Positions 35,260-40,635 of a stretch of 64,000 bases of DNA are shown piece after piece. Below the pieces are notes generated by a model. That model made no database searches and was not told the origin of the DNA. It saw only the letters and a list, made by a program, of their open reading frames with translations. Source of the DNA: Acidobacteriota bacterium (GTDB lineage Bacteria > Acidobacteriota > Terriglobia > 2-12-FULL-54-10). The stretch spans positions 1-64,000 of the forward strand of contig SHUM01000011.1 of NCBI GenBank assembly GCA_009691245.1, given 5' to 3'. How positions within the stretch are numbered: the first letter of the stretch is position 1; every line of letters starts with the position of its first letter. The position numbers and the translations under genes were made by a program.

Positions 35260-35352
<93 letters not shown>

Positions 35353-35405: not shown

Positions 35406-35437
35406 CGTACGTTATGGATAAAAGCACGTACGTATGG
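35406..35437 (+). promoter_or_regulatory. Candidate operator of the VapBC pair
   Basis: CGTACGTTATGG at 35406-35417 and CGTACGTATGG at 35427-35437 are direct repeats built on the palindrome CGTACG, starting 21 bp apart and ending about 40 bp before the antitoxin start. Paired short repeats ahead of antitoxin genes are usual autoregulatory binding sites. Confidence 0.45.
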
Positions 35438-35478
35438 TATGCTCATCCAGTAATAGGTTGGCTGGCAGGAGACGTTCC

Positions 35479-35706
35479 ATGCGCATTACGGCATCCAAGC
35501 TGCGGGAAAATATTTACCGGATTCTCGACGAGGTGGCGGAGAAAGGGACGCCCGTGGAGGTTTTGCGCAAGGGCACGGTGGTGAAAATTGTCGCCGAAAA
35601 TCGCCCGTCAAAACTGGCGCGGCTGAAAAAGCGATCTGGCTTCATCGGCGACCCCGATGATATTGTCGGGATGGACTGGTCGAAGTATTGGACGGAGTTG
35701 CAGTGA
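35479..35706 (+). CDS. Phd/YefM-type antitoxin
   Basis: A 75-residue protein whose N-terminal MRITASKLRENIYRILDEVA is the DNA-binding fold of Phd/YefM antitoxins. The C-terminal part (IGDPDDIVGMDWSKYW) should wrap the toxin. ATG 35479 has AGGAG 6-7 bp upstream. Its stop overlaps the toxin start (GTGA, 35703-35706), so production is coupled. It lies 126 bp after tRNA-Ser. Predicted to repress its own promoter and neutralise the PIN toxin. Confidence 0.85.
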   Translation: MRITASKLRENIYRILDEVAEKGTPVEVLRKGTVVKIVAENRPSKLARLKKRSGFIGDPDDIVGMDWSKYWTELQ

Positions 35707-36077
35707 TCTATCTGGATGCCCACGTTCTGGTGTGGTTGTATTTTGGCAACTCCGAAAAACTGAGTCCCGCCGCGAGACGCGCGCTGGAAAAGCATGATCT
35801 GCTGGCCTCAGCCGCAGCGGTCCTCGAGGTGGAATTGTTGCATGAGATCGGCAGGCTGCGCCCATCGGCGGCGATTATCATCTCGGTGCTGGAACGGGAT
35901 TTGGGGTTGAAGGTCTGCGACCTCCCCTTTCGCACCATCGTTGATTGTGCGCTGAAGGAAGCCTGGAGCCGCGATCCTTTTGACCGGCTCATCGTGGCTA
36001 ATGCCAAGGCGGGAGCCGCGCAGTTAATCACCGCGGACGAAAACATTCATAAGCACTTTCCCCGCGCGGTTTGGTAG
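35703..36077 (+). CDS. vapC: PIN-domain ribonuclease toxin, VapC type
   Basis: A 124-residue PIN nuclease starting at a GTG that overlaps the antitoxin stop. Acidic active-site residues are visible: D5 in VIYLDAHVLVW, E in VLEVELLHEIGRL, D in SRDPFDRLIVANA and D in LITADENI. PIN toxins cleave RNA, often tRNA or rRNA, when the labile antitoxin is lost. It lies just downstream of tRNA-Ser; nothing shows that this tRNA is its target. Confidence 0.85.
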   Translation: MIYLDAHVLVWLYFGNSEKLSPAARRALEKHDLLASAAAVLEVELLHEIGRLRPSAAIIISVLERDLGLKVCDLPFRTIVDCALKEAWSRDPFDRLIVANAKAGAAQLITADENIHKHFPRAVW

Positions 36078-36899: not shown

Positions 36900-37691
36900 C
36901 TAGACGAAGCGGCGGGCGTGTTGTTGCACGTCCTGGCGGAAGTCGCTGGCATTTATCGTCACGCGTTCGCACATCTCGAACAGGCGCGAGTAGACGCGGA
37001 TGCCGATGCGCTCCTGCAGCGTGTCGGCAACGCGATATTTGCCGGAGGGGCTGCGACCAGACCCCGCGTAGGCTGGCGCCGCGTAGGCCGATTCAGCCGA
37101 GCTCTCGGGGAGATTTGTGGTGAGCAGCGTGGCTTTCTTCTGGTTGTAGCGGAAATTCAGGATGTAGGTAACGGTGTCTTCCACCCAATCGGAGATGCGC
37201 CGCGCGCCGAGGTCGTCGATGGCCACCACGTCGGTATGCAGGATGGGTTCGAGTATCTCCGCCTTGCTCAGCTGCGAGATAGGGTCATAGCTTTCCTGCA
37301 GCTTCTCCAGCATGTCCGGGAATGAGCAGAACAGACAATTGAGGTTTTTAGTAAGCATCAATTCCCGCAAGGTTGCCACCATAAGATGAGTTTTGCCGAC
37401 GCCCGGATTGCCGAGCAGCAGCAGTCCCTTCTCGACGAGCGGATACTGCTTGGCGAAACTCTGGGCCTTCATTTTGGCCATCTCCAGCGAAGAGTTGCCC
37501 ATCGGCTGAAAGTCTTCGAAGTCGCAGTTGCGGAAGCGCGGTGGAATCTGCGCCTGCTCCATCCACCAGGCGGCGCTGCGTGGCTGGGTGCGGCAGGAGC
37601 ACGCTTCCACCGCGCGCAGTCCGCCGCGGTCTACGGGGCGCCAGCCGGTACCGTCGCATAGTGGGCAAATGGGTGTCGTCTGTTTCTGCAT
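36900..37691 (-). CDS. DnaC/DnaI-like helicase-loader ATPase
   Basis: A 263-residue protein. An N-terminal zinc-binding module (C9, C12, C31, C33) precedes an AAA+ ATPase with Walker A GNPGVGKT (94-101) and a Walker B-like VVAIDDLG. This layout matches DnaI/DnaC loaders that place the replicative helicase on DNA, and also the related IstB family. No transposase gene is adjacent, so a housekeeping role is more likely. Divergent from the NtrC-like gene. Confidence 0.82.
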   Translation of the reverse strand: MQKQTTPICPLCDGTGWRPVDRGGLRAVEACSCRTQPRSAAWWMEQAQIPPRFRNCDFEDFQPMGNSSLEMAKMKAQSFAKQYPLVEKGLLLLGNPGVGKTHLMVATLRELMLTKNLNCLFCSFPDMLEKLQESYDPISQLSKAEILEPILHTDVVAIDDLGARRISDWVEDTVTYILNFRYNQKKATLLTTNLPESSAESAYAAPAYAGSGRSPSGKYRVADTLQERIGIRVYSRLFEMCERVTINASDFRQDVQQHARRFV

Positions 37692-38020: not shown

Positions 38021-39382
38021 ATGAACGCGGAAGAGCCCATCCACTTGGGTTCGCTCAAGGCTGGCGTGAAGGTATTGGTATGCGGTGTCTCCACCGACCG
38101 GATGGAGGAGATAACCCGGTTCCTTTCCGCATTTGAGTATGAGCCTATTCCGGTGCGTTCGCCCGGACGGGCTTTGGAGGCGGCTGTGGCCAGCCAGGCG
38201 CCGATCGCCATCTGGCTGGAAACGGATGCCACCGCACGGCGAGGTGTGATGTTGGATGCGGCGCGTATGCTGCGCACACTGACACCAGGCACCGAATCGA
38301 TTTTGGTCGGACCCGCGGATGAGCCTGAATATGCGGCAGCGGCATTTCGCGCCGGGGTGTACAACTGTCTGACCTGGCCGCTGGATTACGCCAATCTGGC
38401 AAGAGATATGGACCTTCTGGGATTTCGTGCCACGCGTCGTCGTGAACAGAGTCTGTGGGCGAGCAGGGGAAATGAAGTGACTTTTGAAGGCATGGTCGGA
38501 AGCAGTCTGCGGATGGCGGTCATTTATGAGCAACTACAGCGCCTGGCACTGACCGCTGACCCTGTGCTAATTACCGGCCCTGTGGGAGCGGGCAAAGAGT
38601 TGGTCGCCAGCGCGTTGCATTCCCTCGCGGAGAAGGCTGGCATCAATAAAAATTACCAGCCCATGATGGTCTACCGATGTTGCGGACTGACCGAAGATCG
38701 CGCCGCTGAGTTGTTTGGGGAGCAGGGTGTTTTAGGCCCCATTGTTGGAGATGCTCGGCCCGAGGGTGAAGCAAAAGCAGAGGCGGTCGCCACCGAAGGG
38801 ATCAACGCCGTCGAACTATTGGGATTCACGAGACCAGGAGTACTGCTGCTCGACGAGATCAGCGATCTGCCCCGTCGCGCCCAGCAGAAGCTGGCATCGT
38901 GGATTCTGGTGAGAAAGGCCGTGCGCAAGGATTTTCCCGTGCGCATCGTGGCCACCAGCCGGTTCGAGCTGGGGCAGGGAGAGTTTCACCCCGGCCTGTT
39001 GCGTCTGCTGGCGAAAGAAACCATACAGATTCCCGCCCTGCGCGATCGAGTGGAAGATATACCCTTGCTCGTCCAGCATTTTCTCAGCCGTCGTATGCAA
39101 GGTGGCGCAAGCGGCGAAGTGGCCGCTCCGATACCAGAGATTTCACCGGAGGCCCAGCAGGCCCTGCTGAGGCACAACTGGCCGGGAAACGTTCGTGAAC
39201 TGGAAAACGTGATTTCTCGCGCGGTGATGCTGGCAAAGCTGGGGCGGATCGAGTTGCCAGACCTGAATATTTCTGCGCCGCCAAAGCCGCCATTGGGCTA
39301 CTCAGCATGGGCCGGGTCAGGATGGGCTGGGTCAGGATACACCGAAGTGGATGGAGCGGCGCGCCCCGCTTGGCTCAATTAA
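38021..39382 (+). CDS. Degenerate NtrC-like AAA+ protein without GAFTGA or HTH
   Basis: A 453-residue protein. Residues about 15-125 resemble a response-regulator receiver, but the phospho-acceptor strand reads PIAIWLETDA with no clear conserved Asp. Residues about 150-420 are a sigma-54-activator-type ATPase: GPVGAGKE (186-193), LLLDEISDLPRRAQQKL and NWPGNVRELENVISRA. The GAFTGA loop that contacts sigma-54 is missing; the segment after ELFGEQG is an unrelated insert. The C-terminus ends in a Gly/Trp-rich tail without a Fis-type HTH. GGAGG lies 5 bp before ATG 38021. It precedes another degenerate signalling gene at 39463. It is unlikely to activate sigma-54 promoters; its role is unknown. 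Confidence 0.8.
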   Translation: MNAEEPIHLGSLKAGVKVLVCGVSTDRMEEITRFLSAFEYEPIPVRSPGRALEAAVASQAPIAIWLETDATARRGVMLDAARMLRTLTPGTESILVGPADEPEYAAAAFRAGVYNCLTWPLDYANLARDMDLLGFRATRRREQSLWASRGNEVTFEGMVGSSLRMAVIYEQLQRLALTADPVLITGPVGAGKELVASALHSLAEKAGINKNYQPMMVYRCCGLTEDRAAELFGEQGVLGPIVGDARPEGEAKAEAVATEGINAVELLGFTRPGVLLLDEISDLPRRAQQKLASWILVRKAVRKDFPVRIVATSRFELGQGEFHPGLLRLLAKETIQIPALRDRVEDIPLLVQHFLSRRMQGGASGEVAAPIPEISPEAQQALLRHNWPGNVRELENVISRAVMLAKLGRIELPDLNISAPPKPPLGYSAWAGSGWAGSGYTEVDGAARPAWLN

Positions 39383-39462
39383 TTGTTCCGCGAGAGAGCG
39401 GGACAGGCAAAGCGTAATCGTGAGAATGAATAGTTATGGCAACTAATAACGGGAGCGTAAAT

Positions 39463-40545
39463 ATGTCCAACATAGAGGTCTCGACAGAGAGATCCACTGG
39501 TTCTTGGGATGTGCTATTGCGGATGGGCCGGTCGCTGCGGATTACGGCCATCGCGGTAATCGTAGTCCTGTCGATCGGGATTGCGTTGGTGCTGCAGGGG
39601 CAGATGATGAATAACCCTGATCTGGCCCATTGGCTGACCCGCCCCACCCTGCTCATCGCAGGATTCTCTTCGATGATGTTTCTGACGGTTACTTATCTCA
39701 TCGGCAAAGAATGGTCTGTGGTCCGCAGCCAGCGCGCGGTACTGGTGACGGCTCTGGAAGAGGAGTCCATTAACATGGCTCGGCGGTTCAACCCGGTGGT
39801 GGATTTCCATCACCCGGAGGTCTGTCGCGAAATTCTGACGCAGCAAGCCAGCCTGGCGGCCCGGTTGCATGCGCCGATCTCCATTCTGGAACTGAGTCTG
39901 TCGGAGATGGGCAGCCAGCCGCTTGCTCCGCAGTGGCGGCAGTTTGGCTCCGAACTGTCGCGGCAGGTGAAGGCGCGCTCGCGCCAGACCGACTCCATGC
40001 TGCGCTGGACCCCGGAATCTTTCCTGCTGGTGATGCCGGAGGTTTCCGCGGAGGAGATGGGCGTCATTACCACTCGTCTGCATAATGAACTGGAGGTCTG
40101 GTTCCAGGAGCGCTTCGACGCGAATCGCCGCCCGACGCTGCAATCCCGCGGCTTCACCACTGACATACTGGGCAAATCCAGCGATATTCTTCGCGAGACC
40201 CAGGCTCTGCTGGAGGAACAGGCGCGCCTCAGCAGTCCGAAGGCCGATGGAAAGCGCATGCAGGTTCGCCGCGAAAAAAGCGTGGGTCTTACGCTCCAGT
40301 TCGATATTTCTGGCATGGATGCCGGCGGCCAGGAGTTTTGTGATCGTATTATCACGCAACGCGTCTCGGCAGACTGCATTTGGTTTGCCTGGAATCGTGA
40401 AGTGGAGTTGGAGGCATCGCTCCAGGTCTCCGATCGCGAGGGTACCGTTTCCGCGAAGGCCGTGCTGGCGGAGTTCGCAACGGTAAAAGGCGAACGAATC
40501 GCCGAGGTACGTTTTCCCAAGGCTCCGGACAATTGGGTTATGTAA
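39463..40545 (+). CDS. Membrane protein with degenerate GGDEF and PilZ-like domains
   Basis: A 360-residue protein with two transmembrane helices (about 27-44 and 61-81). A coiled linker leads to a region shaped like a diguanylate cyclase (APISILELSLSEMGS, then a segment before FLLVMPEVSAEEMGVI). The GGDEF position reads WTPES (182-186), so cyclase activity is improbable. The last 95 residues recall PilZ (LQFDISGMDAGGQEF). GGGAG lies 7 bp before ATG 39463; ATG 39436 is an alternative. It ends just before a strong terminator and is likely co-transcribed with the NtrC-like gene. Possibly a sensor or scaffold using cyclase-like folds without catalysis. Confidence 0.7.
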   Translation: MSNIEVSTERSTGSWDVLLRMGRSLRITAIAVIVVLSIGIALVLQGQMMNNPDLAHWLTRPTLLIAGFSSMMFLTVTYLIGKEWSVVRSQRAVLVTALEEESINMARRFNPVVDFHHPEVCREILTQQASLAARLHAPISILELSLSEMGSQPLAPQWRQFGSELSRQVKARSRQTDSMLRWTPESFLLVMPEVSAEEMGVITTRLHNELEVWFQERFDANRRPTLQSRGFTTDILGKSSDILRETQALLEEQARLSSPKADGKRMQVRREKSVGLTLQFDISGMDAGGQEFCDRIITQRVSADCIWFAWNREVELEASLQVSDREGTVSAKAVLAEFATVKGERIAEVRFPKAPDNWVM

Positions 40546-40602
40546 CCCCGCTTTCCGGTTAAGCGAACGATCACAACATGAAATGCCTGAAAAAGGCCTG
40601 GG

Positions 40603-40635
40603 AAAGGGAGAATCATTAGGATTCTCCCTTTTTTT
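40603..40635 (+). terminator. Rho-independent terminator
   Basis: Stem GGGAGAATC/GATTCTCCC extended by A-T pairs, 5-base loop ATTAG, then seven T. It ends the 38021-40545 transcript. Confidence 0.9.

Follow-up and report, generated by a model that had tools for sequence, protein, structure and literature searches.

PelD of B. cereus carries a degenerate GGDEF domain with an RxxD motif and a distal arginine; it binds c-di-GMP at 103 nM, and binding is lost on mutation (PMC7112168). Among regulators related to the sigma-54 activators, NtrC of Caulobacter and of Rhodobacter and VpsR are without GAFTGA, and some of these regulators use ATP binding and not hydrolysis (PMC10274813). TyrR, DhaR and HupR have no functional loop, and FlgR, CtcC and FleT have no DNA-binding domain (PMC3162934). 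In PspF the wild-type ATPase has a Vmax of 39.5 per min, and the substitutions R162H, D164A and R168A in the RxDxxxR motif reduce it to 0.08, 0.21 and 0.17, respectively, i.e. to about 1% or less; substitutions at these residues also lead to constitutive hexamers (PMC3419264). In the NtrC-like protein NmpR the exchange D54E is phosphomimetic (PMC6211767).

The window analysed here is the whole stretch of 64,000 nucleotides, taken from the 3.43-Mb draft genome of an Acidobacteriota bacterium. Two consecutive genes, P1 and P2, were compared with the systems above (coordinates are those of the window, on the plus strand unless stated otherwise). The best explanation, which we hold tentatively and to which we give a little less than an even chance, is that the pair is what remains, in derived form, of a c-di-GMP/two-component locus, with P2 as a PelD-type membrane receptor and P1 as a decommissioned, nucleotide-holding AAA+ partner.

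The degenerate GGDEF domain of P2

P2 (39436..40545) is an intact open reading frame of 369 aa; an alternative start, ATG 39463 (39463..40545), is preceded by GGGAG. The structural model contained two long N-terminal helices, predicted to be transmembrane, as well as a GGDEF-like domain and, at the C-terminus, a beta-barrel; its confidence was moderate, with a pLDDT of about 70-85 for the folded parts and 62.6 for the whole. When the PDB was searched with this model, the folds found were those of the diguanylate cyclases SiaD, WspR, DosC and PleD and of the PilZ protein MotI/DgrA (5vx6). A profile search gave a SiaD/GGDEF-like match with an E value of 9e-6. P2 scored below the Pfam GGDEF cut-off, and three of its relatives scored above it.

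Alignment to SiaD paired RWTPESF of P2 with RWGGEEF. WTPES (40006..40020) thus stands at the WGG(D/E)E position of active cyclases. The GG(D/E)EF signature is gone in all four orthologues of the family, which read WTPES (P2), WTTES (G001), WTPDS (G003) and WSSDS (G006). The beta-barrel (40273..40518) is PilZ-like according to the moderately confident model, its fold match to 5vx6 (E 6e-4) and a profile alignment, in which hhalign placed it collinear with PilZ domains with a P value of 3e-4 and a probability of only 38%. Pfam gave no PilZ match for this tail, and the motif positions read RREKS and RVSADC, so that RxxxR and (D/N)xSxxG are both lost. A previous sequence-only reading of this DNA had described P2 as a membrane protein with a cyclase-like domain, WTPES in place of GGDEF and a PilZ-like end, and the SiaD alignment, the model and the fold matches agreed with that description.

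The complete c-di-GMP inhibitory site (I-site) of P2 had been overlooked. It consists of an RxxD motif (R183 and D186, 39982..39993), five residues before the signature, and R214 (40075..40077), 28 residues after D186, which matches the spacing in PleD. R183 was present in all (100%) of 45 P2-like proteins from the class and ranked first among 248 columns. D186 was found in 42 (93%), with Glu in the three others (relatives from G004, G002 and G031), and R214 in 40 (89%), while the GGDEF positions were conserved in less than 50%. An alignment of eight proteins, half of them with an identity to P2 of only about 20%, likewise showed R183, D186 and R214 without variation. The I-site residues thus rank with the best conserved columns and the GGDEF positions do not, which argues for a receptor; the Glu at position 186 in three of the 45 relatives counts against it.

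Alternatively, P2 could have lost c-di-GMP binding and serve as a scaffold, with the RxxD residues kept for folding and with P1 and P2 forming a membrane complex independent of the nucleotide. The acidic I-site residue and arginines of the R214 type are common in ordinary GGDEF domains, and this, like the Glu for D186 in three relatives, would suit a scaffold. The full conservation of R183 in 45 diverged proteins, next to GGDEF positions that drift, speaks against it, and we consider a scaffold unlikely.

Losses in the activator-like protein P1

P1 (37985..39382) is an intact open reading frame of 465 aa with a receiver-like and an AAA+ domain. By its profile matches, its alignment and its placement in the trees described below, it is a degenerate sigma-54 activator. 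The alternative start ATG 38021 (38021..39382, 453 aa), which was the start used in the sequence-only reading, has GGAGG upstream and a better ribosome-binding site than ATG 37985. The Pfam search detected the AAA+ lid (PF25601, E 1e-20) and Sigma54_activ_2 (E 1e-15). The receiver score was 12.9 bits, which is under the cut-off of 30.2, and no HTH family matched; the C-terminal tail comprises about 58 residues without an HTH. An AlphaFold model calculated from two sequences had a mean pLDDT of 42 and was set aside.

The motif positions of P1 were judged by alignment to 59 other activators of the class. The phospho-Asp position of the receiver, which is D in 58 of these, is occupied by E79 (38219..38221), which perhaps holds the receiver fixed. 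The acidic pair is gone as well (G34/V35, with V35 replacing D), and the receiver Lys is W131. Walker A, GPVGAGKE (38576..38599; G198, G201, G203 and K204), the Asp-Glu of Walker B (D290 E291, 38852..38857) and sensor II, GNVREL (39185..39202), are kept. Loop 1 (GAFTGA), with F in 57, T in 57 and A in 58 of the 59 activators, is replaced by an unrelated, longer stretch (38720..38833). R231 (38675..38677) is found at the position of the switch Asn (PspF N64), which is N in 47 of the 59 and in 16 of 16 of the nearest group, and T-N of sensor I reads S-R. The trans-acting arginine-finger motif RxDxxxR (R in 59, D in 57 and R in 59 of the 59) is replaced by HxGxxxL (38987..39007), with H335, G337 and L341 at the three positions, so that all three residues are lost.

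The alignment bore out the earlier description of P1 as NtrC-like, without phospho-Asp, GAFTGA and HTH and with the Walker motifs kept, and extended the losses to both arginine fingers and the switch Asn. As judged from these residues, P1 is a sigma-54 activator by descent and no longer a member by function, because GAFTGA, the arginine fingers and the HTH are all lost. Its motifs and the PspF mutants suggest that P1 probably binds nucleotide with hardly any hydrolysis, and the same mutants suggest that a P1 ring may stay assembled.

A different role would be the poisoning of other sigma-54 activators in trans, with P1 joining their rings as a subunit that neither hydrolyses ATP nor binds DNA, and with P2 acting as a membrane holder or being a historical neighbour. 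The source genome contains six complete activators and sigma-54, and the lid and sensor II are kept in P1, all of which would fit this role. Mixed rings are nevertheless uncertain, because P1 has lost the interface residues of RxDxxxR and shares an identity of only about 30-35% with the other activators of this genome. As this explanation also gives the adjacency of the two genes no role, we regard it as quite improbable.

The sequence-only reading had proposed an ATP-driven membrane signalling pair, in which P1 would be an active ATPase. That P1 retains Walker A, Walker B and sensor II favours this proposal; HxGxxxL at the arginine finger, Arg at the switch Asn and S-R at sensor I speak against it. 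R162H of PspF is the substitution that P1 itself carries (H335), and since it nearly abolishes the ATPase of PspF (PMC3419264), P1 would no longer hydrolyse ATP at a normal rate. The term ATP-driven is therefore unlikely to apply, and the proposal as a whole is very doubtful.

Retention and kinship of the pair

P1 and P2 are separated by 53 nt and followed by a terminator and then by lpxB. As the gap is short and no terminator was found between the two genes, one transcript for both is plausible. The intrinsic terminator (40600..40634) had a folding energy of -25.2 kcal/mol and a z value of -4.1; it was found by folding and was not listed by the terminator scan. The congener G001 has the identical gene order P1-P2-lpxB-peptidase and also preserves the terminator stem, in which one pair shows a compensated change from A-T to G-C. 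The strong terminator noted previously after P2 was thereby confirmed. On the other side of P1, a gene for a DnaC-like ATP-binding protein (36900-37691, minus strand) is divergent from it. Further upstream, by eye only, a putative gene pair for a Phd-type antitoxin and a PIN/VapC-type toxin was seen (35434-36077), directly after a tRNA-Ser gene (35260-35352).

Relative to the G001 counterparts, dN/dS was 0.17 for P1 and 0.16 for P2; the AAA+ part of P1 taken by itself gave 0.11, and the GGDEF-like and PilZ-like parts of P2 gave 0.11 and 0.08, respectively. The neighbouring genes lpxB and M1 peptidase had values of 0.22 and 0.06, respectively. Pseudogene decay of P1 and P2 was rejected because of these ratios, the intact frames in both species and the conserved terminator with its compensated pair; the view that the intact frames reflect retention rather than decay thus held. 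That P1 and P2 are functionless relics in slow decay, as the very long stem branch of P1 and the limitation of the pair to one genus might suggest, is most improbable in view of the same ratios, frames and terminator.

When the class was searched with a profile of P2-like proteins, many genomes matched strongly, and the surroundings of 40 P2-like loci were read. At five of them (G004, G031, G111 and two in G087) there was, within 5 kb, an activator that retains GAFTGA and HTH; these loci carry variously genes for hybrid histidine kinases, REC-HD-GYP, REC-PilZ and REC-GGDEF proteins. The probability of five co-localisations in 40 loci by chance is about 5e-7, assuming 1.5 members of the activator tree group of P1 (see below) per 4.5 Mb and with loci that are not all independent. 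At the f6 loci among the 40, no sigma-54 activator was found beside the P2-like genes. Three genomes of the same family as the window differed in their arrangement. The order in G004 is kinase-activator-REC-HD-GYP-P2-like. G006 has activator-REC-HD-GYP with P2 elsewhere in the genome, and G003 has REC-HD-GYP-P2 and no activator; the P2 orthologues of G003 and G006 occur without P1.

The trees placed P1 within an 18-row group together with all five locus activators and activators of G002 and G006. Support was 98.5/100 (SH-aLRT/bootstrap), and 100/100 (bootstrap/SH-aLRT) in a second tree with a site-mixture model. None of the six other activators of the source genome fell within this group. As the stem of P1 is about 2.7 substitutions per site long, its exact sister was not fixed by the trees. 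Its nearest relatives were activators with GAFTGA and HTH intact, so that the expectation of no normal homologues close by in the phylogeny failed for P1. The four-member clade of P2 branches deeply within the pseudo-GGDEF proteins, and kinship by type of locus, not strict orthology, is therefore claimed between P2 and the P2-like genes of the five loci. A conserved adjacency was upheld in so far as an activator of the P1 group beside a pseudo-GGDEF gene recurs in the class; the activators at those loci are intact, however. The opposite view, that there is no conserved adjacency, was found to be wrong by the class-wide profile search.

Several side observations were made among the relatives. 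One activator of the same tree group (L012/L205, G051:C39) has Glu at the phospho-Asp position and intact GAFTGA and HTH. This is a separate loss, and since GAFTGA is kept there, receiver loss and transcriptional loss are separable. Loci L132-L161 and L162-L201 encode two-TM pseudo-GGDEF proteins of about 250-300 aa with the I-site kept (RxxDSIY...F). Many f4 and f6 genomes encode such proteins, some of which score above and others below the Pfam GGDEF cut-off; no description of this protein family or of its locus was found in the open-access literature. L169 and L170 (G087:C423 and C374) are paralogous loci, each with a histidine kinase, an intact sigma-54 activator, a pseudo-GGDEF gene and a REC-type response regulator; the latter is REC-HD-GYP by Pfam in L169, where REC-PilZ is also present. 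In L199 (4787-6619, G350) the pseudo-GGDEF genes occur as a tandem duplicate.

Among 399 genomes of the class, P1-type degeneration was detected in this genus only: the two P1 proteins scored more than 1000 bits, against 134 bits for the match ranked next. The pair was seen in only two genomes of this genus. Loss of GGDEF is common to the P2 proteins of G000, G001, G003 and G006, and on this sequence evidence it predates the divergence of the family, i.e. it is at least as old as the family and older than the losses of P1. As the loss in P2 is family-wide and that in P1 confined to the genus, the losses were sequential as far as the data show, and the coordinated loss postulated earlier was not borne out.

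Proposed function and comparison with known systems

According to the preferred reading, c-di-GMP would bind at the membrane to the I-site of P2, whose cyclase site is gone. Binding would change the cytosolic domain of P2 and with it the PilZ-like tail, whose own binding motifs are lost, and P2 would pass this change to P1 by a presumed contact. P1 would descend from a phosphorylated sigma-54 activator encoded together with pseudo-GGDEF genes in related lineages. It could no longer be phosphorylated, touch sigma-54 or bind DNA, and would act as a static partner of P2, presumably loaded with nucleotide and possibly forming a ring, with a physiological output that is likewise conjectural. The pair is probably a sensor with a nucleotide-holding partner, because the activator parts of P1 are lost and P1 is yet preserved beside a P2 that keeps its I-site. 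As P2-like genes pair with the activator group elsewhere, the activator and the pseudo-GGDEF protein may already have been in contact in an ancestor, and this contact may, by conjecture, be what selection still preserves. The restriction of the pair to one genus and the P2 orthologues without P1 in G003 and G006 count against this reading.

An unlikely extension is that c-di-GMP gates a membrane complex of the two proteins, with a non-hydrolysing ring of the decommissioned sigma-54 activator as its nucleotide-loaded structural partner, and that this complex derives from a locus that joined sigma-54 control and c-di-GMP reception. If true, this would be a non-transcriptional use of the activator fold.

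P2, as known from its sequence, resembles PelD in being a membrane protein with a GGDEF fold, a dead active site and an RxxD I-site with a distal Arg. PelD has four TM helices, whereas two are predicted for P2; P2 also differs in the absence of a GAF domain, in its PilZ-like tail and in having no adjoining exopolysaccharide operon. The pair also brings to light, in this acidobacterial class, the family of two-TM pseudo-GGDEF proteins in which the I-site is kept, and several of their genes adjoin those of sigma-54 activators, histidine kinases and HD-GYP and PilZ response regulators.

P1 shares with the NtrC/PspF-type activators the receiver-like and AAA+ domains, Walker A and B and sensor II, and groups with intact activators of the class, but it is without phospho-Asp, GAFTGA, switch Asn, arginine fingers and HTH. 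Loop 1 is lost in P1 as in the GAFTGA-less activators (Caulobacter and Rhodobacter NtrC, VpsR, TyrR and HupR), which in contrast keep their HTH and regulate sigma-70 promoters, while P1 has no DNA-binding domain. The latter is also missing in FlgR, CtcC and FleT (PMC3162934); these are counted as functional sigma-54 activators and so have GAFTGA, whereas P1 has lost it together with catalytic residues. PspA-PspF is a model of a partner protein acting on the AAA+ ring of an activator (PMC3791423). No sequence relation of PspA to P2 is claimed, and in P1 the activator itself is disabled. A published case with all losses of P1, including the arginine fingers, under selection and beside a pseudo-GGDEF receptor was not found in the open-access literature. 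Single losses were known before; what differs in P1 is their combination with the loss of the arginine fingers. P1 is an activator caught at a stage when its transcriptional role is entirely gone, still under selection and with intact relatives in comparable loci, and comparison with these relatives makes the step from a regulator to a non-transcriptional AAA+ partner testable.
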